From contig OX442418.1 in assembly GCA_949361645.1 (NCBI GenBank), forward strand, positions 3,801,771 through 3,865,770: a stretch of DNA of 64,000 nt, read 5' to 3'. The notes beneath the pieces were generated by a model, which did no database searches, was not told where the DNA came from, and worked only from the letters and a program-made list of their open reading frames with translations. The position numbers and the translations under genes were made by a program. Of the stretch, positions 3,001 through 63,324 are shown one piece after another; positions within the stretch are counted from its first letter, which is position 1; the number at the start of each line of letters is the position of its first letter. This stretch comes from Spongilla lacustris. Its lineage: Eukaryota > Porifera > Demospongiae > Spongillida > Spongillidae.

Positions 3001-4215
3001 TAAGCACACCACACTCACAGGACTGTTTCTCTCGGCTACATGCCTTAACCCCTGACACTCTTATAAAGCACACCACACTCACAGGACTGTTTCTCTCGGC
3101 TACATGCCCTAACCCATGACACTCTTATAAAAGCACACCACACTAACCAGGACTGTTTCTCTCGGCTACATGCCTTAACCCCTGACACTCTTATAAAAGC
3201 ACACCACACTCGCCAGGAATGTTTCTCTCGGCTACATGCCTTAACCCCTGACACTCTTATAAAAGCACACCACACTCACAGGACAGTTTCTCTCGGCTAC
3301 ATGCCTTAACCCCTGACACTCTTATAAAAGCACACCACACTCACAGGACTGTTTCTCTCGGCTACATGCCTTAACCCCTGACACTCTTATAAAAGCACAC
3401 CACACTCACAGGACTGTTTCTCTCGGCTACATGCCTTAACCCCTGACACTCTTATAAAAGCACACCACACTCACAGGACTGTTTCTCTCGGCTACATGCC
3501 TTAACCCCTGACACTCGTATAAAAGCACACCACACTCACAGGACTGTTTCTCTCGGCTACATGCCCTAACCCCTGACACTCTTATAAAAGCACACCACAC
3601 TAACCAGGACTGTTTCTCTCGGCTACATGCCTTAACCCCTGACACTCTTATAAAAGCACACCACACTCACAGGACTGTTTCTCTCGGCTACATGCCTTAA
3701 CCCCTGACACTCTTATAAAAGCACACCACACTCACAGGACTGTTTCTCTCGGCTACATGCCTTAACCCTGTTATAAAAGCACACCACACTCACAGGACTG
3801 TTTCTCTCGGCTACATGCCATAACCCCTGACACTGTTAAAAAAGCATACCACTCACACGACTGTTTCTCTCGGCTACATGCCTTAACCCCTGACACTCTT
3901 ATAAAAGCACACCACACTCGCCAGGACTGTTTCTCTCGGCTACATGCCTTAACCCCTGACACTCTTATAAAAGCACACCACACTCACAGGACTGTTTCTC
4001 TCGGCTACATGCCTTAACCCCTGACACTCTTATAAAAGCACACCACACTCACAGGACTGTTTCTCTCGGCTACATGCCTTAACCCTGTTATAAAAGCACA
4101 CCACACTCACAGGACTGTTTCTCTCGGCTACATGCCATAACCCCTGACACTGTTAAAAAAGCATACCACTCACACGACTGTTTCTCTCGGCTACATGCCT
4201 TAACCCCTGACACAC
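1..4215. repeat. 65-bp satellite array with higher-order repeats
   Basis: About 64 head-to-tail copies of a 65-bp monomer that starts TATAAAAGCACACC and ends CCCCTGACACTCT. Length variants of 64 bp (one A missing in the TATAAAAG part) and 66 bp (CTAACCAGG instead of CTCACAGG) mark particular monomers. A four-monomer marker block recurs, identical or nearly so, beginning near 179, 700, 1613, 2264 and 3045, with offsets of 521, 913, 651 and 781 bp (8, 14, 10 and 12 monomers). A second block with a shortened monomer (CTTAACCCTGTTATAAAAG) recurs at 3761 and 4078. Short minus-strand reading frames through the array are by-products of the repeat. Confidence 0.97.
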
Positions 4216-11865: not shown

Positions 11866-12158
11866 CTAACAATACTTGGTAGTTAGCTTGTCAGCTAAAT
11901 CATTCTCTCCAACAGCTGGTTTCCTTAGGATGGCAATAATGTGGGTCCATGTGTATGTACTTTCTGAGTCCTTTTTACTCCACTCGATGAACACCTGTTC
12001 AAATGACTTGAGGTGTGGACTTGATTCCCTAGAATTCTGATTTTGGATACTATCTAGAATACCAGTTGGTAGATTTAACTGTATTCCCACATCTCTCCAC
12101 TTTGCAGGGATTGCAGCAGCAATGTCATTCATAAGATCCTTTAGTAGTGGACCAACAC
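11866..12158 (-). CDS. Roco last exon, Death domain
   Basis: Acceptor CGCTGTTTAG precedes GTGTTGGTCC. The one leftover base of the previous exon completes the first codon. The protein runs VGPLLKDLMNDIAAAIPAKW and continues with VGIQLNLPTGILDSIQ and FEQVFIEWSKK to a stop after KLTTKYC. Helix pattern, the W of AKWRDVG and the later W of EWSKK fit a Death domain, a protein-protein interaction module. The upstream intron contains the 1.1-kb foldback element. Confidence 0.8.
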
Positions 12159-15100
12159 CTAAACAGCGAAGAAACATGTCCAACACAGCCAAAGAAACAT
12201 GTACCGTAGAATCCCTCTCACAACCCCCCCCCCCTCCGCCCCCAACGCGAGAGATTGAAAAAAATGGGTACTTTTTAAAATCACCGTATCTCAGTAACCA
12301 GTTACGCTAGCGCTTACCTTTTTCAAACTTTTGTAGGACTACCATTTCTTTCCTAGAAAAAGTCCCTGTTTGGCATCGCATTGACAGGAATTACTTTTGA
12401 CAGGGTCAGATAACTTACCTGGTTCTGGACAGCCGTATCTTTTGAACCGCTCGTATCCAACCGCGGAAATTCGGTGTACAATAAGTAAAACCATCCTTAA
12501 ACACAGGTAACGTATTATTTGCAGCGGTTACCTTACACTTTGCGGTGGAAAACATCGTCAAAAAAGTGAGACCTCTTCTGTCCGCCATTTTGAAGTAATG
12601 GACATACTCATAGGCCCGAGTCCGATCCATGTCTAGTGCTCATACTAAGTGCAATAGAGTTGGGATCGATTTTGCGATGTTCATATGATTTTTCGTGCAT
12701 GCAGCAATGTTATGATCCATGTCTGACCTTATACATGTGAACGGTGCAGCCAGTACGTCGTCTGACCTTTGTTACGTAACCAATATAATTTTAATGGCTG
12801 TACCCGTTCACATGTATAAGGTCAGACATGGATCATAACAATGCTGCATGCACGAAAATCATATGAACTTCGCGAAATCGATTCAAACTCTATTCCACTT
12901 AGTATGAGCACTAGACATGGATCGGACTCGGGCCTATGAGTATGTCCATTACTTCAAAATGGCGGACAGAAGGGGTCTCACTTTTTTGACGATGTTTTCC
13001 ACCGCAAAGTGTAAGGTAACCGCTGCAAATAACACGTTACCTGTGTTTAAGGTTGGTTTTACTTATTGTACACCGAATTTCCGCGGTTGGATACGAGCGG
13101 TTCAAAAGATACGGCTGTCCCGAACCAGGTAAGTTATCTGACCCTGTCAAAAGTAATTCCTGTCAATGCGATGCCAAACAGGGACTTTTTCTAGGAAAGA
13201 AATGGTAGTCCTACAAAAGTTTGAAAAAGGTAAGCGCTAGCGTAACTGGTTACTGAGATACGGTGATTTTAAAAAGTACCCATTTTTTTCAATCTCTCGC
13301 GTTGGGGGCGGAGGGGGGGGGGTTATGAGAGGGATTCTACGGTAAGTGTACATGTATGCATGAGTACATCCTATAACTACAGTTATACACGTAGGTCCAA
13401 GATATAGTCTGAAATAAAGAATTGTAATGTTCTAATTTATAATTTTCAATTCATTTCGTACATGCACATGCTTGCTTACCTGGAATTGATCTGCAGCTAT
13501 TGGAGTCAATACCAATCAGCTTTGGCAGACGAGGTTCTGTACTTATCCATTTATCTATCACCACAACCTTCCCATTGGCATCACGAACACCATCCTGTTT
13601 CTTCACCATAGCATCCTTCAATGTTGATATTTCCACACGTGGCAGTGAGCTAGGCACACAATCCTTACGGAAGAGGGGAGTTACATGACAAGGATCAATG
13701 ACAAATTCCTCGACAGCAACAGAGGGACTGTATTCATTAAGTATATCCCTAATGACCTTAAGAACAGGTACATCTTGATATTGGGGCCCTGGAAATGATA
13801 CAGCCACACACAGGGAACGGAACTGCTCCATTATGTCAACAAGTACGGTCACTCCTTCAGCAGTATTGAAACATATGCCAGTACTCCAAATTGCTGTGCA
13901 CTGACGATTAAGGCCAATCAGCCCAGGATTACAGACTAGCATTTTTGATCCACTACAGAACTGATTTGACAGTGTGAACATCATAACATGAAGGAAGCGA
14001 TTAGGGAAAAAGTAGTATGGGTGCTTTGTACACATCAGCCAGCCAAAGCTTCCCTTTGTATCGATATCACCAGGCCTCCCTACTTTAATCAGGGATGGGA
14101 AATATAGGACATAGCCATCATTATTGTTGGCCAAATCCAATGGTATTTCATTCATAATTTTGTGAGTAGTTTCAACCAGGTAGCATAATTTGAGTTCGAT
14201 CAAAAAGGTAACCAGTATCACTGCATGGGATCTAGATCAGGAAAATATTGTGTAAGATGAGATATAGGGACAAGTCCAGTGTTGCTGGCTAAGCCACGGT
14301 ACTCATCAAACCTATCAGGAGCAAACAGCACACCTGCAACTTTCCTAAGCAACACATATGTGTGTATTACTACCCAACTCTCATCAATGTTGTGCTTGTT
14401 GAGAATAAATATAATAAGACCTTTGTCTGACAAGGTCTGCAGAAGTGGCACCATCTTGGAGGTTTTAGTGGGTAGGACATTGGTGTGATCTTCCAGAAGC
14501 AGACTCAGGAGGCGTGAAATGGTTATAACCTGCTCAGAAGGTGATATCTGTATCTGTTCCAGATAGGCATAAAGAATATGACAATCATTAGAGATGACCG
14601 GACATCGCTGGATCACTACATCATTTGATTCCCTCAACAGGCCAATCAATCTCTTCATACCATCACTGAACTGAGCTGTGGTGTCCAAGACAACACACCC
14701 TGCAAAGTGTTGATTCTTAAATATTTCCTTTGCAAGATCTTCAATTGCATTACAACACCTTTGCTGATCAGCTTTATTCACCCTATCAGCATGTGTGGCC
14801 ACCACTATCACCTCTGATGGCTGGGGGCACTTAGAACACACATTTGATATCATGGTGGACCAGTAGTAGAGCTGTTTTGTAATTTCATTCTCAATCAAGC
14901 TAATGTCCACCAATGATAGAAAGGTGGCTGGACTGCTAAGAGAGATGGCCTCAATACAGGCGCAGTGACTGGTGTAGTACTCTGGCTGTCCAGCCAGGTC
15001 ATAGAGGACCATATTTCCATTTAGTGAACTCTGAATGTTGTAGGGTATGATGCCTGCCGTCAGTGGCTTGGAAGGTTCAGCTGCTTTATAACGGTTCTAA

Positions 15101-18100: not shown

Positions 18101-21100
18101 ATGCTTAGCTATAGGCCAGGTGGGTCACAACACTGTTCTCCAACTTAAGTATTAGAGCAAATGCATGCAAGAGCCATACATCGTATAGAACAAAACTTGT
18201 GCGATTGGTTATATGTTTATTATAATCTAGCTAAAGATCTAATGATTCTCTCCTCTAATAATGTTTTGGGACAGGGACTTTGCCTCAGTCACGTTTTGAT
18301 GATATTTAATTTAGGCATTTGTTTGTACAGTTGATTGATTGATTGAATTATTTGATTGATTTAGTATTGTATAACATTAGTGCATTATAGTGGTGTTTTC
18401 GTATATATAATTCAAAGTTTATACATGTAGCAAGCATTAATTATGAGCACATGCACAATATAAACACCAATTCACACATGTATATGCTACCTGAGCCAAT
18501 GTACTCTTCCCTGCTCCACTGTTTCCACATAAAATGACTTTGCTGAATGTGTGAACAGGAAATTCACACAAAGCTCTCAGCAGTTTTAGTATGTCATATT
18601 TTCCACGTGCCAACAGAACTGCAGTAGTTCCATTTCTATCTTTAATGTGTACATCAATTCCAGGAGCTGACAGCAGTTCTTTAACACACTGAACGTGACC
18701 CTCTTTGATAGCCAAATGCAATGGTGTACTGCCAGAATTGACCTAATGGTAAGTGAGCCTGTGTAGTGTTCATGCTACAAATACCTGGCTGTAAGCATAC
18801 TAGCTTGTATGTAGAAAGAGAGCTATTTACCAAATTAGTAGCATTGTGATTTTAAAGACCAATTTGGAAAATAGCTCTCTGCTTATGTAACCCCAAGCAA
18901 ATTAAAAGGTAGCCTGACAATTATAGAAAAAGTATGTACAGTTGCATTGTGATTTTAAAGAATAATCTGGGGGCCAAAAAGCAGTTCTCTCTCTCTTAAT
19001 GTCTATTGTCCTGAATGTCCACCCGGGGGTACAATTGGACACCCGGGTGGACAGCAAAAAAAGTTTTTGCCGTTCGGTCACGGAAGGGACCTGGCTGCAT
19101 TTAACGGTACTGGCTTACAGAACAAGTCTTTTCAGGATCGGGCCGAGATAAGTAAGGCTTAAAACCTTTCGGTACTCGTAAAACGACCCGTGCTAGCGGA
19201 CCTATCCATTACGCTCCGTGCATGTGGATCGGTCGTAGCGTAACTGATAGGTCCACTCTACGCGCGTATGTAAATACAACAAAGATTAAACTTATACTGT
19301 TTTAGTCCTCGAAGGACACCTGACTGATACATCGATTCTTACGTTATACGAATAAAGAAGGATAAGCCACATTCCATATTGCCATGCGGTAACTAGCTAT
19401 AGGATTCAGTTGCCTGTCTCCAAGCCAACTTTTCAATGGAATGGAACAGCCGTGGGAGCAGGATTGCCCATAATCTTTGCATGAATGTCGTGCTTAAATC
19501 AGTCTTTATTGTTTATGTCTTCATCTTGTTTTAGTTTCATTTGTGTATTTATTTATTTATTTATTTATCATTTCCAGTTACGCAAATACATGTATATACT
19601 GTTATTAAAATTCAATAGCCTAAAAGATAAAATCAAATGATTTGACACAATAATGTACAGTAACTTTTAATTGATTGCAAGCTGCTTTGTAAACCGCAGA
19701 ATAAAATAATGAAATTCTATTGACTTTTTACTAGTTAATAAATAAATGCATGCTATTATTCCACTTAACTAAGATTAATTAAAGTCAGAAGGGACCACAT
19801 TCCTGGACAGTAAGGCCCTAGCTATGGCTCTCACCAGGTTGATATTTAGCCTCCCAAACATGTCACTAATCACTCTGGCTTTGTGGAATGAAGAGCCAAA
19901 GGCTATGCGTGCGGCCAGTAGAGTGAAGGTTCTTCTTGCCTCCTCCCCCCAATTGCAGTATGATTCTACAGGCACACACACCCAGCCTAGTACAGCACAT
20001 TTCAGGTCGTTGGATGTGTGCTTTCTCCTTTCTGCGGCTTCAGCAGCAGCACCCACCCTCCTACATGCCTCAGCCAAAATAGCAGAGGGGTAAGAGGAGA
20101 CGTGGCAGTGATGTAAAAAGCAGCTGGCTTGCCTTGTGCCCAGTCCCTTACTAGCACATCAGCTGGGTGAGTGCAATCAAGTCCTGTAGTGATGGCACTT
20201 CCAGCTTCTAATCTTGCTGCCAGGTGAGGAAGACATTGCACAACCTACATGTATTGTGGCGTATAAACGACATCACCACCACGCATGTCCAAGTGTCCAG
20301 CCCAACCACCATTTCACCGCTATCTGCAGCTCATTGGGATCTAAATGTAGCCCAAGACCTACAGAAGGCACAACTGTGAGCCAAGAGGCTGCATGGGGTG
20401 CAGATGTGGAGAGAAGACATGCCATGTCTGTGTCAGTTGCAGCTCCAATTATAAGCCCATAGGAGTGGTCATCCAACCTCTGAGACAAAATTCTCTGTGT
20501 TCTAGTTAATGTTCAAATCAAACTTGAAAACGCTAGAACACCAATTTTTGAAAATCAACTTTTACTTTTAATAACTCACTATGGCATAATCACATGACTT
20601 TTAAACGGTATTTCCTACATTCGTTAATAATGAACTCATTTATATCTTCCTTCTCTTCTTAATCTTGAATAACTTTGATCATAGAGGGTTTTGAATATGT
20701 TGATTTATTATGATACAATTTCTTAACCTGCACTCACCATATATTAAATCTAATTACATTGCCCATATTTGCCTAACAGTGGTAATGTATAACAATGATA
20801 TCAAGTGGTTAATTAATTTCAATCAATAGTTATACTGATTTAAAAGCATTGCGTTCATTTATGGACACCCGGTACATGTATAGTAGCAGCACACTTTACT
20901 TGGCAGCCAGGACGTTGGCCCAGGCTTGGGTCCTCGAGTTAGAAGGTCAAGGTAGGGATCTGCCCTGGCTACATTTAGTATGAATAGGCATAGCAGCAAG
21001 CAAGAAATACACAGGGAGGTACAAAGATGATGCAAGGGTGGAGGGTGGGTGATGCAAACAGACAAACTCTCCTGAAGCACCAGGGAGTACTGGGAGGCTG

Positions 21101-24100
21101 CACTAATATAATCTCACAAGCTGGACATGGTGTACAAAGGGTAACAATAGGGAGGATGAGGCTCACACCCGCCTAAGAGCCTGTGTAGCCGCATGCATCT
21201 GCCCACCAATGCTGATAGATAGGGAATTACTAGAGCCCCATTAAGCTATGTTTAGCTCCCTAAACAGGACCAGTACTACATCATGTGTAGTGTAAGCATG
21301 TACATCCCTACAATTGCACATGGTCCCAGTGGTACAATACTGTATATTGTGATGGTGGTTTGGCACGCAGGTGTCTCCCCAAGTCTCCCCCCACATGACC
21401 TAACAAGCCACACATGGCCTGGCCACAGGGACTCCCAGCTGGTCACTTGCATGATAGTTGCATCTCTCACAGGAGCTCCCCACGGCCAACAGGTCAGGGG
21501 CTGCGGGGTCACAGCTCTGGGGGTTCTTGCCCTGGCCCCCTATTTTCGCCAATCAGTCAACTAGGTGCATTGGTGGGCATGAGCACAGAAGCATTGTAGC
21601 TGAGGAGCTTGGGGGCTGGGTGTGTACACGAGGAAGTTAGGGGAGGAGTGGGTTAGTTGAGCCACTGGGTTAGTTGAGCCACCCCCTGTTTTAGCTCCAT
21701 GAAGAAACATAATTGAATTATGTTAACATATATTGGCATTAAGTGTTATGACTAGCTTTTTGTCCTACTTTAGGATTTTGTTTTAGTATTCATCAGAATA
21801 TGAAATTCAAAAATAAGAATTTTGATGATCAAAGTGAAATTCTGTTTTTACGGTTTGTGCCCTCATAATTTCTACACAATGACTATATTCTTGTTTCAGT
21901 CTTGGGTGTTTGAAAGTACATGTATGCAGCTATATTTATGTTTATAATGAATTCTATACTTTGCTTCCTTTTTATACAACTTCGGTAGTTACAGGAAAAG
22001 TTAGTAGTGGGGTTAGTTGAGCCATTTGCAAAGGGGGTTAGTTGAGCCATACGCTTTAGCTGCAATTGTATGGTATTAAAATGATTTATTGATTGACGTA
22101 ATAGAAATAGTGAGCTATGCTTATTTGGCTATGCAGCAATCTCAGAAGTATTCTGTTTTAATTTCTATATAGAAAAATGACTTTGAATAACGTTAAAAAC
22201 ACTTGCCGATCAATTTCAAGAGCTCTCATTGAAAAAGTGTCATGCATTAGTGTATGAATTTGCTTTTATCAATGATTTGACAACATAAGGCCTAGACCTA
22301 CTTATGTTAGCAATTATTGTGCAACGCAACTAACTTTGGCTGAAGGCAGCATATGGCTGAATTGACCCATGTACCTGGCACAACTAACCCACTTGGCTGG
22401 GTTAGTTGTGCCGTTTGACACCTGTTGTTTTTAATAATGTCCCTATTCTCACGTACATCCCCAGTCTCTAACATTCCTATGACATGTACCCAAGTGATGC
22501 CCCTTTACATCAGAGTATTAACCTCTGCTTAATACCAAACCTCAGAGGCAGTATAAACCTAAACCTAAAAAGTGGCTCAACTAACCCACTCCTCCCCTAC
22601 TAGTCATGGGAACTAATACTACATTTAATGACATGATTATGAAACCATACACATACATGTACATTTGTACTAAAGCAACACTAAAAACATGTGCAGTCAT
22701 ATTTAGCAACTGTAGTGTTGTACATGTACACATGTACATGTGGCCCATACCACACATAGAAGTATGATATAAATGAGTGTGCATAATATGGCAATATGAT
22801 CACTAACACTGGGAACATGTGCAGTGATACTTACCTCCTGTAGTGTTGTACATGTAGTCCATAGCACACATAATAGAAGAGAAGGAAGATATAAATGATT
22901 GTGCAAGAAATGACATCGTCATTAAATTATACACATACTCATGCAACACTGGGTCCATGTGCAGTGATACTTACCCTCTGTAGTGTTGTACATATAGTCC
23001 ATAGCACACATAATAGAAGAGAAGGAAGATATAAATGAGTGTGCAAGAAATGACATCATCATTAAATTATACGCATACTCTTACAACACTGGGAACATGT
23101 GCAGTGATACTTACCGTCTGTAGTGTTGTACATGTAGTCCATAGCACACATAATATATAGAAGAGAAGGAAGATATAAATAAGTGTACAAGACATGACAT
23201 CATCCTATTTTTTTTACATACACACACTCATACAACACTGGGAACATGAGCAGTGATACTTACCCTCTGTAGTGTTGTACATGTAGTCCATAGCACACAT
23301 AATAGAAGAGAAGGAAGATATAAATGAGTGTGCAAGAAATGACATCGCCATTAAATTATACACATACTCCTACAACACTGGGTCCATGTGCAGTGATACT
23401 TACCCTCTGTAGTGTTGTACATGTACATGTAGTCCATAGCACACATAATAGAGAAGAGAAGGAAGATATAAATGAGTGTGCAAGAAATGACATCGTCATT
23501 AAATTATACACACTGGGTCCATGTGCAGTGATACTTACCCTCTGTAGTGTTGTACATGTAGTCCATAGCACACATAATAGAAGAGAAGGAAGATATAAAT
23601 GAGTGTACAAGAAATGACATCATCCTAATTTTTTTTAAATACACACACACTCATACAACACTGGGAACATGTGCAGTGATACTTACCCTCTGAAGGCTTG
23701 TACATTTACATATAGTCCATAGCACACATAATAGAAGAGAAGGAAGATATAAATGAGTGTGCAAGAAATGACATCATCATTAAATTATACACATACTCAT
23801 ACAACACTGGGTCCATGTGCAGTGATACTTACCTCCTGAAGTGTTGTACATGTAGTCCACAGCACACACAATAGAAGAGAAGGAAGATATAAATGAGTGT
23901 GCAAGAAATGACATCATCATTAAATTATACACATACTCATACAATACTGGGTCCATGTGCAGTGATACTTACCTCCTGTAGTGTTGTACATGTAGTCCAC
24001 AGCACACACAATAGAAGAGAAGGAAGATATAAATAAGTGTACAAGAAATGACATCATCCTAATTTTTTTTTATACACACACTCATACAACACTGGGAACA

Positions 24101-27100
24101 TGTGCAGTGATACTTACCCTCTGAAGTGTTGCACATTTACATATAGTCCATAGCACACATAATAGAAGAGAAGGAAGATATAAATGAGTGTGCAAGAAAT
24201 GACATCGTCATTAAATTATACACATACTCATACAACACTGGGAACATGTGCAGTGATACTTACCCTCTGTAGTGTTGTACATGTAGTCCATAGCACACAT
24301 AATAGAAGAGAAGGAAGATATAAATGATTGTGCAAGAAATGACATCGTCATTAAAATATACACATACTCCTACAACACTGGGTCCATGTGCAATGATACT
24401 TACCCTCTGTAGTGTTGTACATGTACATGTAGTCCATAGCACACACAATAGAAGAGAAGGAAGATATAAATGAGTGTGCAAGAAATGACATCGTCATTAA
24501 TACACATAATCATACAACACTGGGAACATGTGCAGTGATACTTACCCTCTGTAGTGTTGTACATGTAGTCCATAGCACACATAATATATAGAAGAGAAGG
24601 AAGATATAAATAAGTGTACAAGAAATGACATCATCCTAATTTTTTTAAAATACACACACTCATACAACACTGGGTCCATGTGCAGTGATACTTACCGCCT
24701 GTAGTGTTGTACATGTAGTCCATAGCACACATAATAGAAGAGAAGGAAGATATAAATGAGTGTGCAAGAAATGGCATCATCATTAAATTATACACATACT
24801 CATACAACACTGGGAACATGTGCAGTGATACTTACCTCCTGTAGTGTTGTATATGTAGTCCATAGCACACATAATAGAAGAGAAGGAAGATATAAATGAG
24901 TGTGCAAGAAATGACATCTTCATTAAATTATACACATACTCATACAACACTGGGAACATGTGCAGTGATACTTACCACCTGTAGTGTTGTACATGTACAT
25001 GTAGTCCATAGCACACATAATAGAAGAGAAGGAAGATATATATGAGTGTGCAAGAAATGGCATCATCATTAAATTATACACATACTCATACAACACTGGG
25101 AACATGTGCAGTGATACTTACCGTCTGTAGTGTCGTACATGTAGTCCATAGCACACACAATAGAAGAGAAGGAAGATATAAATGAGTGTGCAATAAATGG
25201 CATCATCATTAAATTATACACATACTCATACAACACTGGGAACATGTGCAGTGATACTTACCGTCTGTAGTGTCGTACATGTAGTCCATAGCACACACAA
25301 TAGAAGAGAAGGAAGATATAAATGAGTGTGCAAGAAATGGCATCATCATTAAATTATACACATACTCATACAACACTGGGAACATGTGCAGTGATACTTA
25401 CCTCCTGTATTGTTGTACATGTAGTCCATAGCACACATAATAGAAGAGAAGGAAGATATAAATGAGTGTGCAAGAAATGGCATCATCATTAAATTATACA
25501 CATACTCATACAACACTGGGAACATGTGCAGTGATACTTACCTCCTGTATTGTTGTACATGTAGTCCATAGCACACATAATAGAAGAGAAGGAAGATATA
25601 AATGAGTGTGTACAAGGAATGGAATCATCAATAAATTATTCCCAAGCACAACATGCCAATCATGTTCATGTGGGAACTGTGCAACATGCACTAGTTGCAT
25701 ACCCACATAAACTATATCTAGCTGTATTAGCTGACTGAAATGGTAGTGTCAGCAGTGAGGAGGTTTGTATCATTAATAGGGTATGCAGCTGTGTTGAGTA
25801 CATCATAAGAAAGTATTATCTAAAGCTAACTACAATGGTAAAGCAAACCATTTTCTTGTCATATCTGTATTACATAATTGTAAATATGTGGCACAAAAAA
25901 GCATACCACAACTACTCGATATTTCACACTATTAGCATAGGCTCCAGCCTGGACAAGAATAGTGATGACTGAGGAGTGCCCATGTTTTGCAGCAAAGTGA
26001 AGTGGTGTAGCTTCAACCTACATACAATAACAAACATGACTTTCAGTGATATATTGAATGGAATGTGTTATCAATGGGATGAGTATGCAACAGAAATACT
26101 ACAGCTACATACAACTAACAAGTGCAGTGATACTTACCTCCTATAGTGTTGTACATGTAGTCCATAGCACACATAATAGAAAAGAAGAAAGATATAAATG
26201 AGTGTGCAAGAAATGACATCATCATTAAATTATACACATACTCATGCAACACTGGGAACATGTGCAGTGATACTTACCTCCTGCAGTGTTGTACATGTAG
26301 TCCATAGCACACATAATAGAAGAGAAAGAAAATATAAATGAGTGTGCAAGAAATGACATCATCATTAAATTATACACACACTGGGAACATGTGCAGTGAT
26401 ACTTACCCACTGTAGTGTTGTACATGTAGTCCACAGCACACATAATAGAAGAGAAGGAAGATATTAATAAGTGTGCAAGAAATGACATCATCCTAATTGT
26501 TTAATATACACACACTCATACAACACTGGGAACATGTGCAGTGATACTTACCCTCTGTAGTGTTGTACATGTAGTCCATAGCACACATAACAGAAGAGAA
26601 GGAAGATATAAATGAGTGTGCAAGAAATGACATCGTTGTTAAATTATACACATACTCATACAACACTGGGAACATGTGCAGTGATACTTACCAGCTGTAG
26701 TGTTGTCCATGTAGTCCATAGCACATATAATAGACGAGAATTAAGGAAGATATAAATGGGTGTGCATGAAATGACATCGTCATAATTATATACACATACT
26801 CACAACAACACTGGGAACACGTGCAGTGATACTTACCCCCTGTAGTGTTGTACATGTAGTCCACAGCACACATAATTGAAGAGAAGGAAGATATAAATAA
26901 GTGTGCAAGAAATGACATCATCCTAATTTTTTAAATATACACACACTCATACAACACTGGGAACATGTGCAGTGATACTTACTTCCTGTAGTGTTGTACA
27001 TGTAGTCCATTGCACACATAATAGAAGAGAAGGAAGATATAAATGAGTGTGCAAGAAATGACATCTTCATTAAATTATACACATACTCATACAACACTGG

Positions 27101-30100
27101 TAACATGTGCAGTGATACTTACCTCCTGTAGTGTTGTTCATGTAGTCCATAGCACACATAATAGAAGAGAAGGAAGATATAAATGAGTGTGCAAGAAATG
27201 ACAACATCATTAAATTATACACATACTCATACAACACTGGGAACATGTGCAGTGATACTTACCACCTGTAGTGTTGTATATGTACATGTATATGTAGTCC
27301 ATAGCACACATAATAGATATAAATGAGTGTACAAGAAATAACATCGTCATTAAATTATACACATACTCATACAACACTGGGACCATGTGCAGTGATACTT
27401 ACCAGCTGTAGTGTTGTCCATGTAGTCCATAGCACATATAATAGACGAGAATTAAGGAAGATATAAATGGGTGTGCATGAAATGACATCGTCATAATTAT
27501 ATACACATACTCATAACAACACTGGGAACACGTGCAGTGATACTTACCCCCTGTAGTGTTGTACATGTAGTCCACAGCACACATAATTGAAGAGAAGGAA
27601 GATATAAATAAGTGTGCAAGAAATGACATCATCCTAATTTTTTTAATATACACACACTCATACAACACTGGGAACATGTGCAGTGATACTTACTTCCTGT
27701 AGTGTTGTACATGTAGTCCATTGCACACATAATAGAAGAGAAGGAAGATATAAATGAGTGTGCAAAATACTCATGCAACACTGGAAACATGTGCAGTGAT
27801 ACTTACCGTCTGTAGTGTTGTACATATAGTCCATAGCACACATAATAGAAGAGAAGGAAGATATAAATGAGTGTGCAAGAAATGACATCATCATTAAATA
27901 ATCCACATACTCATACAACACTGGCAACATGTGCAGTGATACTTACCTCCTGTAGTGTTGTTCATGTAGTCCATAGCACACATAATAGAAGAGAAGGAAG
28001 ATATAAATGAGTGTGCAAGAAATGACATCTTCATTAAATTATACACATACTCATACAACACTGGGAACATGTGCAGTGATACTTACCACCTGTAGTGTTG
28101 TATATGTACATGTATATGTAGTCCATAGCACACATAATAGAAGAGAAGGAAGATATAAATGAGTGTGCAAGAAATGACATCTTCATTAAATTATACACAT
28201 ACTCATATAGGGTGTGTAACCTTTTTCATAAATCAAAATCGATTATTTCTACTATGAAAAAAAGTCCAATCGATTTTTCAGGTTAATAGCAACTTGAAAA
28301 TCGGTTATTAGAAACATTAAATCGATTTTGGCGATTAGTGCACCATTAATTTGCCAACGATTACCTAGGTTTTTCCGATTTGTGTTATTAAATCCCAGTT
28401 TCTCAAGTTTATACACGGATAACTACTTATCAGCTGGTTATGCCAACATTAGATAGTATCCGCAGGGACTGGAAACGAGGTGCATTCCAATGTGATGCCA
28501 CGTACATCCACTGCATGGATTCAATGGCGGTCGGGTGGATGGGAATTATCACCAAAGAACACATTCTTGCATATTGGGTGGATGGGTGGAACACCTTTCC
28601 ACGCATATGACAAGGCCGCCAATCAAGACATGTACGATTTCATAATATTAATGTTATGGCCGAACGTCTGGAAAAGAGCCACAGTGTACCTAAGTATTTG
28701 GACACCTGTCACCTGTGCTGCTGTGCAAAAGAGTACATAGTAGCACGTTCGATTAACGCACATGTACTATACTGCAGAGAGCGCGAACGTATTTAAATCG
28801 CCGTGCCCAATGACTGCGTGTATTTACGATGATTAGACTGATGGTTATCTTTAATACTAATTCAGCCGGGTCCCCAGACTAATGTTCATTACATCATGTC
28901 AACTGTGTATCGATTAATTAACCCTTTGTACTTCAGGCAGGAAGGGGCATATAAAAAGGGTAATCGATTTCCTACCGATTTCTGTGCGAAGGAAACGAAT
29001 ATCGACTAATCGCGACTAAGAAAAACAGAATCGGTTATTTCGACTAAAGAAAATTCTGAAATCGGTAACCTGCTATTCTACTAAATGCATAGTCGACCGA
29101 ATAGGTAATCGCGAATAATCGGTTAACCTACAAAACCTGAAAATCGGTTACACACCCTATACTCATATAACACTGGGAACATGTGCAGTGATACTTACAT
29201 ACTGTAGTGTTGTACATGTAGTCCATAGCACACATAATAGAAGAGAAGGAAGATATAAATGAGTGTGCAAGAAATGGCATCATCATTGAATTATACACAT
29301 ACTCATACAACACTGGGAACATGTGCAGTGATACTTACCTCCTGTAGTGTTGTACATGTAGTCCATAGCACACACAATAGAAGAGAAGGAAGATATAAAT
29401 GAGTGTGCAAGAAATGACATCATCATTAAATTATACACATACTCATACATCACTGGGAACATGTGCAGTGATACTTACCTCCTGTAGTGTTGTACATGTA
29501 GTCCATAGCACACATAATAGAAGAGATGGAAGGTATAAATGAGTGTGCAAGAAATGACATCTCATTAACATATTCATACAACACTGGGACCATGTGCAGT
29601 GATACTTACCCTCTGTAGTGTTGTACATGTAGTCCATAGTACACATAATAGAAGAGAAGGAAGATATAAATGAGTGTACAAGAAATGACATCATCATTAA
29701 ATTATACACATACTCATACAACACTGGGAACATGTGCAGTGATACTTACATACTGTAGTGTTGTACATGTAATCCATAGCACACACATAATAGAAGAGAA
29801 GGAAGATATAAATGAGTGTGCAAGAAATGACATCATCATTAACATATTCGTACAACACTGGAACCATATGCAGTGATACTTACTTTCTGTAGTGTTGTAC
29901 ATATAGTCCATAGCACACATAATAGAAGAGAAGGAAGATATAAATGAGTGTGCAAGAAATGACATCATCATTAAATTATACACATACTCATACAACACTG
30001 GGAACATGTGCAGTGATACTTACCTCCTGTAGTGTTGTACATGTAGTCCATAGCACACATAACAGAAGAGAAGGAAGGTATAAATGAGTGTGCAAGAAAT

Positions 30101-33100
30101 AACATTATCATTAAGTTTTACACATACTCATACAACACTGGGAACATGTGCAGTGATACTTTCCAGCTGTAGTGTTTTACATGTACATGTAGTTCATAGC
30201 ACATATAGAAGGAAGGTTTTTATATGGGCAAAAAATGATGTACAAAATCTTTCCTGAGATATAAGTTCTGTCACGTTCGCTACCCAACTACTCACTTGCT
30301 GTTGCCAATAAATTATAATTCCAATACACACGTGACTTATACAAAAATACAATTAATATCAATTAATTCCGTACACTCCCCCCAGTTGACTAGTTTTTTC
30401 TAGTCGACTTGTAATGAACTGTCCTCATCGTCATCCATCCACTCCATCCACTGGTACCTAGCAACCTGAGCTGCAACTCGTTTTGGATGCTTCATAGGTT
30501 GACCAGAATCCCCAACCTGTGACTCAGAATGCTGAACTTCATCATCTTCATTTCTAGTGGTCTTAGTATTCAAATTCAGCTCCAGTGGGTATAGTTTCTG
30601 TACAGGTCGCCTTAAATTAGTAGTTCTCCCACCTGACTGTACACGGACTACAGCTCCTCTTATGATGTTATCTTCTCCCTTGATCAAATTTTCCACCTTG
30701 CCCATTCTCCATAATAACCTAGGTTGCTTCTCATCATGCACTAGAACGAGATCACCGATGGCTACAAACTTCCCATTGCTGCCAGGAACTTGCATTAGAC
30801 GATGACTTTCTCTTAAACCAGTAAGATATTCGTCCTTCCATCGTTTCCAAAATTTAGACATAGTAAGGCTGACATGCCTTACTCGTCGAGTGATCTCTTC
30901 ATGTGAAGTAGGAGCATCATAATTGTCATCATCATCTTGAATAAAGGAGTCCGGTAATACTGTTAAACGACGACCAGTAAGCAAATGTGCAGGTGTAAGT
31001 GGCTCCTCCAGATCTTCTGAGGATACATAAGTGAGTGGTCTGGAATTAAGATTTGCTTCTATCTCAGTTACCACGGTTAAAAGTTCATCATAGGTGAGTT
31101 TGGCTCGTCCAATAACCTTTTTCAAACACCTCTTTGTCATACCTATCAGCCTCTCGAAGAAGCCTCCCCACCAAGGAGCCTTCTCCAGGTTAAATGACCA
31201 TGTTACTCTCTGATCCGCCAGAAAGGTTTCAACTTCTGGATGGTTCAATAGATCCGTCAACATTTTGCTTGAGCTCACAAATGTCTTACTGTTGTCAGAA
31301 ATGATATTTCGAGGAACACCTCTCCGCGATGTGAAACATCTAAGACAACGAATGAAGGAATTGGCAGACGAGTCTGGTACCAAGTCCAAATGTATTGCTC
31401 TCGTTACACAACAGGTAAATAGACAGATCCATGTTTTACATTCAGAATTCCTAGTGTATAATGGTCCTGCATAATCAACTCCAATGTATGCAAATGGTGG
31501 AGATTCTGTCACACGAAATGCTGGTAATGATGGGGTCTGAGGAACACTGTAAGCCTTTGCATCCAGTTTCTTGCACTTTACACAGTTGTGAAGTAACCTT
31601 CGCAAAACACTCCTTCCCTTTACTATCCAGTATTGTGACCTCAAAATTGATAGGGTTTCTCTCACACCACCATGTTGTACCTTCTTATGACAACTGTGAA
31701 CAATCAGTTTTGTGATGTGATGACTTGCATCAAGAAGTATTGGATGTTTTGCACACTCCGCCAGGTCTGTGTTGTTCAATCTGCCGCCACACCTCCATAA
31801 GCCTGAGCCATCTAGATACAAGCCTAGTTGTTGTCTCCATGATGAAAACTTGGGATTTTTTGTCAATGATGTTTGTATTATCTTAATCCAGTACTGCTCT
31901 GCTTCTGAAACATCAGTTGCAGTCAATGTTCCGCTGGTGTCTTCTTCTCCTTGCTTTCTTGCCTTCAGAACCTTGAGAAACTTCATCACTAGTGCTGTTA
32001 CTCTGAAGAGATGCTGCAAATTGCTGTACACCTCACAATTCAATACTGGGAAATTACACTCAGTGGTTGATGCTGCCAGTAACAAAGAATGATTCTTAAT
32101 CTTCATCTCGCAACGACATTCTTCAGGTACAGAGTCTTCCCTTTCACACATGTAAATAGCCATATCAGTTTGAATGGTATCTTCGCTTAGCCAACTAGGA
32201 CCATGTAACCAAATGGGGTTGCTGATAAGTTCCTCCAAGTTCAGACCTCGTGATGGCAAATCAGCAGGATTTTCTTTACCAGGACAGTGCATCCAGCCTT
32301 CAACAGGAGTAAGTTTTCTGATTTCACATACTCGGTTCTGTACGAATTGTTTCCATTCTTTGTCTTGTCGTGTAATCCAATACAGTGTTTCTTTCGAGTC
32401 TGTGAAACATGTTGGTGGACTCAACTCCTTCAGCGCTGTTGTAAGGCTTGATATCAGTCTGGAAAGAAGTAGAGATGCCAGTAACTCCAATCTGGGAATA
32501 GTGTATCCACCTGTGGGTGAGACTCGAGTCTTGGAGGCCATGAACCGGACTTTACATCCCGTGGGTGTTTCAATCCGTAGGTACACAACGGCAGCATATG
32601 CCTTTTTTGAAGCATCACTGAAACCCATGAGACTGCAACGTATTGCCTTGCTGACACCACAAAACAAGCATCGTGGGATAAAAAGTGGTTGTGTTTGGTG
32701 AAACCCCTTTAGTAACTCTTCCCACTTTGTGAGCAACTCTCCAGTCAGTCGTTCATCCCAAGACATTTTGTGTGAACAAAGCTCTTGAAATAGAATCTTG
32801 AATTGTACAGTTAAAGGAGACAATAGCCCAAAAGGGTCATAAAAACGTGTTGCAAGACCAACCACATTCCGTTTGTTTGGTTCGAGATTCTGTGCCAGTT
32901 TACAAATATGTTCAATACCACAAATGACCTTGTCATCCTTGTAGTTCCACTGCACACCAAGAACTTTAAAGGAATTGCTGCCTTCTGAAGACTCATGTCC
33001 AAATACATTCTTTGCATATGACTCATTCTCTGCACTGACTTCTTGTGAACTGTCTGATGTGATTCGACTGGTGTTATCATGCTCCTGTTCGTCGATTCTT

Positions 33101-36100
33101 TGCTGTAAGACTGGATGGTTTGATGTAAATTTTCGAAGGTTAAAGCCACCTTTCCTTAGGTACTTTTTTGATTTCAAGTAGAGTTCGTATCCTGCTTCGG
33201 CTGTATCAGCTCCAAATGAAAGATCGTCAACATAAATCGAACGGAGAAATTTATCCACGAAGACTTCATCAGTATACCTGTACTTGTCCATGTGATGCTT
33301 GATCGTGGCATTTAGAAGGAACGGACTTGAGGAGACCCCAAACACGACCCTTGCAAAACGCAACACTTGTTTCCTGGGCAGTTCACTGTCTACATCGTCC
33401 ACCCACAAGAATCGTAGCATGTCCCTGTCCTTCTCGTCAATTGAAATCATCAAAAATGCCTTTTCGATATCTGCCACCAATGCCACATTGTGGACTCTGA
33501 ATCTGATCAGTATGTCTAAGATCTTCTGTCCGAAAGTAGGTCCTGCATAGAGACAGTCATTTAATGATGGTCCATTCATTCTTGCTGACGCATCGTATAC
33601 AATTCGCAATTTTGTTGTCAGCTTGTCCTCCCTGACCACTGCATGATGAGGGATGTAGTGTGTGTCTGACATGGGTGACAACTGGCTATCCACCACCTCT
33701 ATTATGCCTTTTGCAAGTTGGTCTCTGATTACTGCATCATATTCACGAAGAAGAGAAGGATTTTGCTTCAGTCTTCGTAACAGTCCAAACAGTCTGGTCT
33801 GGCACAGATTATAGTTGTCAGGTAGCATGGGATGAGGATCTTTCCATGGTAGTTGTACACAATATCTGCCATCCTTGAATGAAACCTGTTTCAGAAACTG
33901 CTCATACAAGGAAGGTTCAATATCCCTAATTCCAAGTGTTTCAACGTCCCAAAATTTTTTCAGTTCTTGTTCCATGATTTCAGTGCTGTTGGTGACAGAT
34001 GATTGAGCATCAACCTTAAGGACATGAGATGAACAAAAATTGACAGTAGTGTCCGCAGATGAGAACCTTGGGACTGGCCCAGAAAGAACCCAACCAAGCT
34101 TTGTTTCAATGGCTGTCGGCCCGCCTCTTCCCTTTTGCAGTCTTCCGGTTACCAGTCGCCAATAGTTGTCAGCTCCAATAAGAATGTTGATGTCTGTACT
34201 ATTACCAACATCTCCTGAATCAGCAAGGTCTAATGTTGACAGATGTTTGAAATGCTGTACCGCAAATGTTATGGGTTGACCAGTGAGTGGTTCGCAAATC
34301 CTGGGAACTGTAAGCAAACAAAACTCCATGTCTGGTCCATACTTCATCTTCATGTTGACTCTGACAACATCACATCTCTCCATTGTACCATTATCCTTGC
34401 CAAAAGTGCTGATCTTCATTACTTCTGTTTTTTCCGTAGTCAGAGATAGGAGCTCTCGTAGTCGGCTTGAAATATAGGACCTTTGGCTTCCACTATCAAA
34501 TATGAGCCTGGTACTGCAGGTGAAATGCGGTTTGCCGGGAGCACAAACGTGGGTCACTGCTGTCTGGAGCAACACCGGTGTATGAGTGCTGATATGCATA
34601 GACACAGTTGCATGTGACGAGGCTGACTTAACATCTGTAGAAGCAGATCGAGCAGTCTGTGGAGATGAACCAGTGTTTGTTGAGCTGTTTACATCTTTAC
34701 TGGATTGAGATGGACTTATGCTGACATGGTGTCGTCCTCTGCAGTTAGGACAATGTTGTGATGAACGACAGTCTTTTCCTATATGCCCTCTCTTCAAGCA
34801 TACAAAGCATCTCCCCGAACGTCGTAAGCACTGCTTCCGTTGCTCAATTGTGGATACAGTTCTGCATGCTTGAGATGCGTGAGGTTTGTTGCAGAAGCAA
34901 CACAAAGCTGACACTGAGTTGTCTGTTAATAGCGCAGTTGCAGTAGCAGGTTCCCTATTTGGTCTTCTTGCAGCTCCATTTGCATCCTGAGTTGTCCTTT
35001 CTCTCGCTTGGATTTCCCTCTCTATGATCTTCAGCAAATCATCTAAGTTCCAACTGTCTTCCTTCACTTCACGGCTAATTATCAAGGCTATTTCTTGTGG
35101 AATCCTTTTCATTACAACAGGTGCTAATAAGCTCCCATAAGCCGCAGAGTCTACACCAAGCGATGACAAGGAACGAACATGGGATTCAATTTTGTCAAAT
35201 ACTTGTCTAAGACCCTTGACATCACGTATTGAGGAGACTTGCTTAATGCCCAGTAGTGATTCCATATGCTTATTTATCAACAGTTGCTTATTGCCAAATC
35301 GTTTCTTTAGTAGGGCAATCGCTGCGTCGTAGTTAGCAGCAGTGAGAGTAAGACCAGAAATGGCATCGGCTGCTGAGTCCTCTAGCAGGGACCGCAGGTA
35401 GACAAACTTATCAACAGCAGAAAGTCCAGAATTCGTATGAACTGAAGATTCATAGGAATCCCAGAACGGAGCCCAAGATGTCATTTCGCCATTAAATTTC
35501 TTTAGGGTCAACTTAGGCAATTTCACTCTACCTCCGCGCTTACGCGATTCTGTTCTGCCTGTAGAATACGTGGTGAATCCACTGCGTGCTGCTGCTGCTG
35601 TTCACCAACTTCTCTTTCAGATGCATTGTTGTTCGGGCTGGCCGCCCGTTGCGGTGGATTTTCAACAGGTGTAGATGATGGCGTTCGATCGGTTATGACT
35701 GCTTCTTGTTGTTTCTGCTCCTGCGCTAAAAGCTCTTCTATCTCTTGAACTGTCATTTCGATAGTTTCTCTGAATTCGTCGGCTTTAACAATTTCGTCCG
35801 TTAATTCCCCTTCCTCGAGCGTTAATTGGAGTATCTCTTCATCAAGTTGCAAAATGATCTTTTTCTTCTCTTCCAGCGTTCGTATGTGTCGTTTCAGTGC
35901 GGGAATGTTAATTTCCTCAGCATCCTTCGCTTCGCTTACTTGCGTCCTGATTCTGGATACTGAAGCCTTGTGTCCCGCTCGCACGCGTCTTTTCCAAGTA
36001 AGCTGTTGAGCCATTTCAGAACCTATATCCTTCTACTTACTATTCCCGAGCTTTCGAAGGACCATGTACAAAATCTTTCCTGAGATATAAGTTCTGTCAC

Positions 36101-39100
36101 GTTCGCTACCCAACTACTCACTTGCTGTTGCCAATAAATTATAATTCCAATACACACGTGACTTATACAAAAATACAATTAATATCAATTAATTCCGTAC
36201 AAATGACATCACATTCTCAATATAGTATTTACTTCCACCCAATCCTGTATAGTTACATGCTTTATTATACTTGAGAGATTTCCCAGTTACATTATGCATG
36301 GGATACATTCTGGCCTACATACATGTATAGACTTACATACATATACGGTAGCTATATTTAGATGTAAATGTATATGAATGATTCATACATGTAACTAAAC
36401 ATTTGTTAGATGATTGCTCACATGTAGGGCTTGGACCAGCACACTAAGCCTATAACATGACTATGGCTTAGCTGACCCCACTGTCTACAACTTAACTGAC
36501 ACTTTTAGCGGAAACATCAAACATTTGCTATTACCTTACACCCCTCCCCCCCCACCCCCTAGACTTTACCAGTGATCTTTGTTTATACACATACAGTGTA
36601 CATGTACTGTTGTGCATGGAGAACAAAATTAATCGTGCAATCTTTACAAGATCATTTCAGAACATGTCCAGCAGACATCTTAGTTACCAATTGGGAACTG
36701 CCTTTGACATTACTGATCATTTCATCCCCCGCTTAATATGTTGGAAGTGGTCACGTACCAATGTGTTTAAGCTAAGTCAGTTGAGCAGAAACATTCAGAA
36801 AATGATCCGAAGTGTGCTGAGTTGGGCTGGTGATGTGTGGAGAACTACGGGGCCTGGGGACCAGAGGCACATAGGGTCTTTGGCTTCTCATTGAGCTATT
36901 TATGATAACACCCCTAAATCAAAAGTGGTAATGTCTGTCCCCGGGGGGGGGGGGGGTCTTTGGCTTCTCATTTAGCCATTTATGATAACACCCCTAAATC
37001 AAAAGTGGTAAGTGGTATTGTCTGTCCCCAGGGGGGGGGGGGGGGGGGGGGAGGGGGGGTAGATATACATGTATAGTATACATGTAGGCTTGTCCAAGGG
37101 TGCTGATATAGCTGTGTTTTCTTTTTGTATCAGAGACATGCACATAACTAAACAGGTGCCACCACATACAGCAGTAGTGCACAGTGAAGCTAACCACTAC
37201 TTATTATAAGTAATGTGCAAACCTTTACAACTGCATTCACATCAACACCATTGGATATCAGACGTTTGATGGTCTCTATGTCTCCATCTGCACATGCTTC
37301 ACAAAGCTGTGGGGATTGGGCAAAGAAATACATGTAGCTCAAATATCTGAATCCTTGTATGATCATAGTCTTTTGTTATATGTTATAATGTATTATACAT
37401 GTAAATGAAAACTTTGGTTTTGTTGATATTTGCAAGCTGTCAGACATACACATACTTTTTTGGCCTATTTTGTCGAACTCACATTTGGGAAAATTAGTAC
37501 CAATTGGGCTGTTCCAATATTTAACTATACACCCCTACAAATGGCAAATGTACCCCCCCCCCCCCCCTCCCCCCGGGACAAACAAACGAGGAAAATAACT
37601 GTACAAGAACCAGGCTATCTGCCAACACGGAATCCATTGTGACCTCCTAATAGTTCCAAATAACCTCGTAATCGTTCCAAATGACACTTATAGCATATCA
37701 AATAAGACACCCCTTGGTTCGCAATGCTGGACAAACGCCATTTTTAGCCTCTCAATTTGGCCGCATGGCCGGCTGACCGCTTGCCAGGCATGCACTTTTT
37801 ATACAGCAACTCCTTCATTAAGTAGTTCTATCAAAACACTCATAAATCAACATTATTAAAGCCCTGTATATATTATCAGAATTATTTATAACATGACGGA
37901 AAGCTAGTTAAGTGTGCTGTATTAATAAATACAGGGTCAGGCATCACTTTGCTTTGTTAAGACATGTGGAAAGAAGTTCAACAATCCCCAAAGACATTAA
38001 ATGCTCTGGTTCACTCAGTTGTGGCTGCCAATGGAGACAAGTTGGAGTTGGTATGGCAAGGTGAAATATATGTAATAGGAAGTGTGCAATGTCGCCTTGT
38101 CACCCCTCCCCTCGTTATGACGTTGAATTGCATGAAAGTCCACCTTTTTTACAATAAAAGTTGTAAATGTATAGCTCTGAGCTGACATGGATCACAAATG
38201 CCAAGTCGGCAAGTTCCCCATAGGAGAGATAAAGCTGCCTTTGGAAACATGACATTGTGCATTAAAATAGCAGAGGCCAAAAGGGGTAAAGGCTAATGGA
38301 GAATGGTCTATTCAAATTGTAAAGACTTGTTATTATAGTCGGAACCATAAACGTTGACGTAGGCCTTAATTCATGATCATTGAGACCCAAACTAGCGTTC
38401 TCTTATACATGTATGTACATCACTATTATCACTATTAAGTCTTATTATAATATGTAAGGAAAAAAGTTATACATCCACAGAAGGTATCTTGCATTCTAAG
38501 GTAGCAGGATTTATAGATTCACACTCACACCTATAATGAAGAGGAACAACTACAATGTGGAATTGTGATGGACGGCCACATACCACAATGAGCCAAAACC
38601 AACCAGCAGCCCCTACATACACCACCTGTGATCAGTGTTCCTCCCCTCCATGTCCCACAACCTATTGCAGCCTTCCCTATACCACCTATGGTCGTTTCGA
38701 ACTTCAAGGAAGGCAAAACCACATGTGTTATGTGAAATCCATTTCTCTACCAGATGCCATTGCTCTTTGTGTGAGGACACATTTAATAGGTAACAATGTA
38801 GTGCCCCCTGTAGCAATGTGATGGATGTCTGGCCTTAACCGATTATAAGCGGAATTATTGCCCACACGTAACGATAACCGCGGAATTAATTTTGGTTTAT
38901 AATCTAATTTGACATACCGTGTGACAGGCGCGTGATAACTTTTGAATGAAGCGACTATTGTATTGGCAACTTTTAGTAATCGGACAGGTCATTAGTTCAG
39001 CTATGCGCTAGTGCATTCCGTTTTGAAATCCGTCTGCGAAAGGTAATCATATAACGGTTTCAACAGCGACGTACAGGCTTATGAGGACGTTTATGACGCG

Positions 39101-55015: not shown

Positions 55016-55040
55016 GGAGGCATTCAAGCAACTGAAACAT

Positions 55041-63265: not shown

Positions 63266-63324
63266 GTGTTTTACAGTAGTGAAACGTGTTTTATGTATAG
63301 CACTGCAAATTTAATCTCATATTC

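Follow-up and report, generated by a model that had tools for sequence, protein, structure and literature searches.

A 64,000-nt stretch of the Spongilla lacustris genome (the window; C4:3,801,771–3,865,770 of an assembly of 248,560,934 bases in 51 contigs, which also served for the genome-wide pattern searches) carries an ankyrin-ROC gene in which two arrays of a ~140-bp tandem unit lie between ankyrin exons. In nearly every unit, a splice acceptor and a splice donor are separated by three bases. These triplets are very probably real exons of a single codon. The array would then be a tandem series of genuine 3-nt exons, and we think it probable that these are spliced serially, one codon each, into the ankyrin-ROC gene. 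A second unit of the same design was found in peptide-like genes. A wider interpretation is, on balance, favored: freshwater sponges would have a distinct gene architecture that builds proteins from exons of a single codon each, with hundreds of such 3-nt exons spliced serially, with arrays edited by unit duplication, and with uniform introns and diversified codons yielding hypervariable secreted peptides and hypervariable loops of intracellular, possibly immune, ankyrin-ROC receptors.

The ~140-bp array spans positions 22668–30238 on the minus strand, in two blocks either side of an ankyrin exon (Table 1). A profile search over the window and ten fetched stretches (L021–L030), eleven stretches of the S. 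lacustris genome, recognized 208 units, all on the minus strand. The window holds 44 of them, 42 with both AG and GT intact; the two outermost units have broken donors. Counted by donor, there are 42 sites in the window with up to three edits, 41 of them exact GTAAGTATCACTGC. The spacing between neighboring donors is 113–150, except for three larger gaps: one of 282, containing a unit with a donor one base different, one of 596 (the exon) and one of 1112 (a transposon). The original prediction, made for this DNA from its letters alone, had described a 140-bp satellite with about 44 decoy donors on the sense strand of the gene, in two introns either side of an ankyrin exon, and the search recovered this layout with 44 units. 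Its ankyrin exon was also found, with limits better placed at 25907–26017 (111 nt, phase 0-0) than at 25928–26017. Genome-wide, the same unit gave at least 215 matches. Among the matches listed, it clusters on C4 in a single orientation, at about 3.41, 3.52, 3.73, 3.76, 3.82, 3.88, 3.90, 3.91, 3.99 and 8.25 Mb.

The unit reads ...CTACAG/NNN/GTAAGTATCACTGC..., and NNN is 3 nt long in 201 of the 203 units that could be evaluated (five of the 208 could not); in the remaining two it measures 2 nt and 7 nt. Among these 203, AG was present in 199, GT in 199, both in 195, and the full GTAAGT in 184. The earlier claim of GGAG/GTAAGT in nearly every unit was right about the donor and wrong about a constant GGAG: three variable bases precede GTAAGT, and they are GAG in some units. 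The CTACAG reported upstream is indeed acceptor-like and pairs with the donor three bases away.

Per-site diversity at the triplet was 0.68/0.70/0.26, versus a median of 0.07 elsewhere in the unit. No column of the unit varies more than positions 1 and 2, those chiefly fixing the amino acid; position 3 ranks seventh. The splice sites are conserved. Among 126 contiguous hexamers outside NNN, GTAAGT was the least diverse, with a mean of 0.034 (208 units; median column 0.070); this was the comparison proposed with the original prediction. The AG and GT columns together had a diversity of 0.024, versus 0.086 in random four-column sets, of which 0.5% were as low. That a repeated donor is unlikely to arise by chance is borne out, since each is on the sense strand of the gene, has an acceptor as its partner and is conserved more than the remaining unit.

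Translated, the triplets yield E, R, V, W, G, L, D, T, Y and other residues. No stop codon was found among the 194 triplets of length 3 with intact sites (11.7 expected), and AAG, CAG or TAG, which would create a second acceptor, occurred 3 times (28.9 expected); both expectations come from column shuffles, which ignore the kinship among units and, because the units are related, overstate significance.

Could the array be an intronic satellite that codes for nothing, its splice sites being decoys or recursive and its triplets untranslated? Its tandem, homogenized and transposon-interrupted structure and the degenerate outermost units of the window would suit such an element. We nevertheless consider it improbable in view of the exact 3-nt spacing, the scarcity of stops, the conservation of AG and GT, a hypervariable triplet between conserved flanks and the coherent peptides at sister loci. 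The roles first suggested for the donors, as decoys, a U1 sink or an intron stabilizer, fare no better: none of them predicts exact 3-nt spacing, stop-free in-frame triplets or hypervariability centered on the triplet. Cryptic microexons were among the same suggestions, and that idea survives as exact 3-nt in-frame units, although the three-base spacing had been overlooked. Elsewhere in the genome, this design recurs with a different unit and encodes apparently complete peptides, which points to real single-codon exons.

In sense order, the gene has an ANK1 exon ending ...AATGCAGTTGTAAAG, array A, an ANK2 exon opening with GTTGAAGCTACACCA, array B, and an exon carrying ANK3 and the ROC P-loop. 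The ANK1, ANK2 and ANK3 boundaries that face the arrays are in phase 0, and this is conserved in most paralogs; each triplet would therefore be one in-frame codon in the loop between two ankyrin repeats. Most of the nine copies aligned retain the GTATGC-type donor of ANK2, which is changed in L024 and uncertain in L029; the start of this exon was shortened in L030. The third exon has an Ank match and GNSGAGKST in one frame, as expected of an ankyrin-ROC gene, and is conserved in L024 (partial) and L025.

Codons and introns have evolved differently. In unit pairs identical at all other aligned columns, the codons differed in 38 of 46 (non-independent pairs, gaps ignored, with one short unit recurring often). 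In the block of L026 and L027 that holds ANK2, 5/6 codons differed, with 21/1120 other differences. Across six long block pairs, 1/6, 1/8, 1/7, 0/6, 0/6 and 4/5 codons were alike; only the first, that of L026/L027, contains the unique ANK2 exon and is surely in register, and the last, in L025, is a two-unit shift. Multi-unit blocks duplicated within an array kept their codons: 6/6 in L023 (761/771 identical), 5/5 in the duplicated blocks of the window (278/284 with 24 gap columns, and 403/406) and 4/5 in the L025 shift. Ongoing codon hypermutation was judged unlikely because recently duplicated blocks inside the array retain their codons. Homogenization of the introns with diversification of the codons seems to fit the pattern better than a mutator.

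The second unit is ~90 bp long and reads ...GAACAATGCAG/NNN/GTAAGTATCAATGATG... It was exposed with an acceptor-N1..9-donor pattern, in which the spacing was free between 1 and 9. This pattern had 576 exact matches, versus 0 for its reverse; a first pattern, common to both unit types, had 234 versus 16. Of 100 listed matches of the 576, 96 had 3 nt between the sites and 4 had 6 nt, and by hand count these 100 form 20 clusters on C1–C3, four of them with a single listed match; the genome thus has at least 20. Ten of the loci (L031–L040) comprised 275 units, 18 without a site or partial, and 257 with AG and GT. The exon length in these 257 was 3 nt in 253, 6 nt in three and 9 nt in one. Triplet diversity was 0.715/0.723/0.594 versus a median of 0.118. 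One stop was found in 254 triplets (8.9 expected) and another in the 9-nt exon, both in L039 after its Gly-Lys. A peptide locus has up to 48 single-codon units.

The order of exons in these genes resembles that of a peptide precursor: an MLKEL... exon, a pro-region, the single-codon exons, and a terminal exon opening with TGA. In L034, L036, L037 and L039 the MLKEL... exon, hydrophobic and signal-like by reading of its sequence, precedes a pro-region of acidic character and a conserved exon with ...GLKTQ at its end. The ordered reading covered fifteen peptide loci (L033 was excluded). L043 reads RPPHIPPIPPIPGK then TGA, with codons AGG CCT ... GGA AAG TGA; its units number 14 by profile and 13 by a stricter regular expression, which misses one Pro with the donor GTAAAT. 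L034 reads CDPSSDCLADCQILPRPGCYAKCC then TGA, where the regular expression misses a Gln and runs beyond the TGA. L038 reads GNEEGPGPPRG...APRGPPG, then K (with a GC donor), then TGA. In L031 joined with L048, 39 consecutive 3-nt exons (with an expression permitting 3 or 6) give RRCPSHFPDCCGPDPCFDIQCPPECCGCPPAGEGCGPRG, followed by K and TGA; the introns are 76–105 nt, and one exception of 155 may hide a unit.

The terminal TGA-opening exon was found in 11 of the 15 loci (it is lacking in L032, L035, L039 and L040). A Lys unit (AAG) immediately precedes this exon in 10 of the 11, and six loci (L031, L037, L038, L041, L043 and L047) have Gly (GGA) directly before that Lys. Six loci and the stretch completing L034 had been chosen by the TGA motif, of which Lys and Gly are not part. 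Exceptions include L034, ending in Cys, and L042, ending Thr-Lys. Gly-Lys-TGA ends are amidation-like, and one predicted peptide would be RPPHIPPIPPIPG-amide. L036 has two TGA ends, after Gly-Lys and, ~1.1 kb further, after Glu-Lys, possibly alternative ends of the peptide. Such an ordered reading, with Lys and a stop-bearing exon last, argues for serial inclusion of one residue per exon. The precursors of L031–L048 are apparently secreted, often end in Gly-Lys, and include proline-rich, cysteine-rich, His-rich and poly-Gly types.

Proteins of the freshwater sponge Ephydatia muelleri share the first exons of the peptide genes. In the NCBI model P0203 (EMCRGX_G003413), the tail matches the translated unit intron with a score of 56, versus a maximum of 36 in 300 shuffles, as if the annotation had read into the array after the shared exons. 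The tails of P0199, P0200 and P0202 had no unit-intron read-through beyond shuffles (P0202 scored 31 versus a maximum of 33; P0199 and P0200 gave none).

If the triplets are exons, they could also be chosen alternatively. Either one codon per transcript (mutually exclusive, Dscam-like) or a variable subset would then be used, giving combinatorial diversity of the finger loops. Nearly all units have strong sites and are in phase 0, so any subset of codons keeps the frame; the codons are diversified; and 3-nt exons with adjacent sites generally tend to be skipped. We regard this mode as unlikely. The order of the peptide genes, with Lys and the stop-bearing exon last, is best understood as a joining of codons in series. 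For the one candidate intron piece, which is conserved, docking/selector pairing with the unit did not stand out (duplex −55.2, versus −52.4 ± 4.7 in 200 shuffles).

For serial splicing we propose the following route. Each 3-nt exon would be served by a separate pyrimidine-rich region, a CTACAG acceptor and a GTAAGT donor. Since the acceptor and the donor stand 3 nt apart, simultaneous binding of both sites is hardly possible, and sequential intron definition is therefore the likely route. The unit introns (~137 nt in the window gene, ~88 nt in the peptide genes) would be removed successively, each removal ligating one codon to the growing upstream exon and setting the next GTAAGT beside it. 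The predicted inserts, which omit the two units with broken donors, are EKYREEYVETEGLVEEGLRWEE (~22 residues, array A) and EETTVEARRRREERRRRTRE (~20 residues, array B), and we infer that they occupy two inter-repeat (finger) loops. Arrays would lengthen or shorten by duplication of whole units. As the introns are homogenized while the codons diverge between copies, the loops would be hypervariable between paralogs.

Several points weigh against serial single-codon splicing. Exons of 3 nt are hard for exon definition, and skipping of a whole array would likewise preserve the frame. The absence of stops is not significant when only the 23 distinct codons are counted, and the avoidance of NAG triplets is not seen in the peptide genes (7 versus 3.9 expected). 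Some peptide-locus units have broken sites: units near the end have lost sites in L044 and L045, the acceptor at the Lys unit is broken in L039, and two units of this kind occur in L040. Periodicity such as that of GPP in L038 comes in part from a repeat of several units, and joint inheritance may account for the GGA-AAG-TGA ends that loci share. A protein search for the spliced ANK1-array-ANK2 product returned 86 hits, taken together and not singly inspected, none named as a sponge product that spans it. The window copy may be impaired, because it has a transposon in array A, a BEL/Pao element upstream and outermost units without donors. The two unit types may have a common origin, but in comparisons biased by the search pattern their donor halves without GTAAGT scored 9.5 (5.9 ± 1.4 expected, maximum 11.5) and their acceptor halves 10.0 (7.1 ± 1.5, maximum 13.0), both below the maximum.

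The unit opens with GTAAGT and closes with CAG, in the manner of introners, which are reportedly present in about 5% of species searched (PMC9860276). The unit could then be a transposing intron, with NNN its 3-bp target duplication. This predicts equal flanking triplets, whereas adjacent triplets were equal in 32/184 cases, versus 25.6 ± 4.2 after shuffling (a few triplets come from partial units). The arrays also start and stop inside a unit, as expected of duplication around a pre-existing microexon, and the matches listed for this unit cluster on one contig, C4, in one orientation. An introner-like origin is highly improbable.

The closest known system is that of the schistosome micro-exon genes (MEGs). 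Their exons are given as 3–81 bp in the abstract of PMC10526429 and as at least 6 bp, mostly 15 bp, in its results, with 10–20 short exons per gene and introns of 0.1–5 kb. As far as that account goes, the sponge peptide genes resemble MEGs in their apparently secreted products, a signal-like exon placed first, many short exons mostly in multiples of three, and rapid divergence (PMC10526429). Multiples of three are seen in both unit types (201/203 units; 257/257 peptide-locus exons of 3, 6 or 9 nt). Unlike MEGs, with 6–81 bp microexons and unlike introns, the sponge arrays have exons virtually all of one codon, up to 48 units per locus, and near-identical tandem introns. The window gene differs further: it shows intracellular-type domains and does not resemble a secreted peptide gene. 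Aphid bicycle genes are also families of secreted proteins with many very small exons, but these are larger than one codon and their introns are not known to be tandem repeats. Dscam-type arrays have tandem duplicated exons of tens of residues that are mutually exclusive; they share with the sponge arrays tandem exons and variable content at one protein position, which in the sponge would be a single residue, probably used in series. A single 3-nt microexon is described in Drosophila homothorax (PMC7392893); it too is one codon, but solitary and alternative, while those of the sponge stand in arrays. Like ROCO or DAPK-like ankyrin-ROC-COR proteins, the window gene joins ankyrin repeats to a ROC P-loop exon, and its ankyrin loops carry the microexon arrays.

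The full-text literature searched, outside which lie subscription papers and most preprints, yielded solitary 3-nt microexons and MEGs but no report of arrays of single-codon exons or of sponge microexon genes. A coding exon cannot usefully be smaller than one codon. If our interpretation is true, a gene consisting mostly of such exons would test how the spliceosome handles an acceptor and a donor that are adjacent. It would also show how proteins can gain novelty by one residue per duplication, and standard annotation would be missing numerous peptides of sponges as well as those parts of receptor-like genes that vary.

Table 1 Features of the ankyrin-ROC gene and its arrays in the window.
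Feature	Position	Strand	Basis or remark
ANK1 exon, LCEACADGDIETIKRLISNGVDVNAVVK, phase 0, donor GTTTGC	37223..37306	-	aligned with splice sites in 7 copies
BEL/Pao retroelement ORF (open reading frame), between ANK1 and array A	30403..35601	-	Peptidase_A17 E 3e-47, DUF1759, DUF5641
Array A, 23 units with acceptor, codon and donor each, 22 with intact sites	26110..30238	-	serial reading EKYREEYVETEGLVEEGLRWEE
Putative single-codon exon GAG, example, first intact of array A	30024..30026	-	CTACAG/GAG/GTAAGTATCACTGC
Insertion, probably hAT-like, 952 bp, within array A	28208..29159		ends TAGGGTGTGTAACC/GGTTACACACCCTA, read from sequence
ANK2 exon, VEATPLHFAAKHGHSSVITILVQAGAYANSVKYRVVV, 111 nt, phase 0-0	25907..26017	-	aligned in 9 copies
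Array B, 21 units, 20 with intact sites	22668..25636	-	serial reading EETTVEARRRREERRRRTRE
Putative single-codon exon GAG, example, last intact of array B	22835..22837	-	codon between acceptor and donor
ANK3 and ROC P-loop exon, VNSGSTPLHLA...GNSGAGKSTLAQ, phase 0 acceptor	18491..18742	-	Ank_4 E 9.6e-11; P-loop label by eye
ORF with ROC G3-like DLAGQPEYY and G4-like THAD (motifs by eye)	14221..15096	-	homologous to Ephydatia muelleri P0005 (carries PF08477)
COR-like ORF (label from position and homologs)	13454..14236	-	within homology to E. muelleri ROC proteins
Death-domain-like ORF (by eye only)	11869..12306	-	translation

Homology to ROC proteins of E. muelleri covers the ORFs downstream of the ANK3/P-loop exon. 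This sponge supplies the best named homologs of the window gene, and P0005 has an Ank match besides its PF08477. A Pfam search of the window reported no hit for the ORF at 14221–15096 or for the COR-like one, and among the matches listed in a COR-A search of the genome none lay at the ankyrin-ROC locus. The E. muelleri ankyrin-ROC models compared (P0005 and P0007) begin at ANK3, without the array region.

The codons of array A open with GAG AAA TAT AGG. The insertion in this array is flanked by an 8-bp target duplication, TACTCATA, at 28200–28207 and 29160–29167, and its class is suggested by its ends. The last unit of array B is TTG (Leu) in five of the nine loci in which the end was read (L021, L023, L027, L029 and the window, at 22709, where the donor is broken), with varying inner codons; it is not TTG in L022, L024, L025 and L030. 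In the paralogs L021, L022, L026, L028, L029 and L030 the alignment resumes only at 36.2–36.4 kb, beyond the BEL/Pao ORF. An ultra-conserved intron after ANK1 was considered and dropped: the excess over exon identity was small except versus L030 (0.909 versus 0.857) and was reversed in L028.

A block at 19578–20640 is conserved next to several paralogous arrays. A portion of the block has an inverted match in L030, and the block looks like part of a transposon or retroelement. A retroelement lies on the plus strand at 52868–56900; its two ORFs overlap and carry domains of reverse transcriptase, RNase H and integrase. A tandem 43-bp repeat, CAAGATGGATGTGTGCATAGCTCTGGGTGTGCGCTGTGAGTGT, at 39406–41363 has a higher-order period of 129 bp (3 x 43) and may be coding, as the three-unit period would restore the reading frame. 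Long tandem arrays of 65-bp and 25-bp units occupy the two ends of the window (1–4213 and 61750–63275), and in the 25-bp array long frames are open on both strands.

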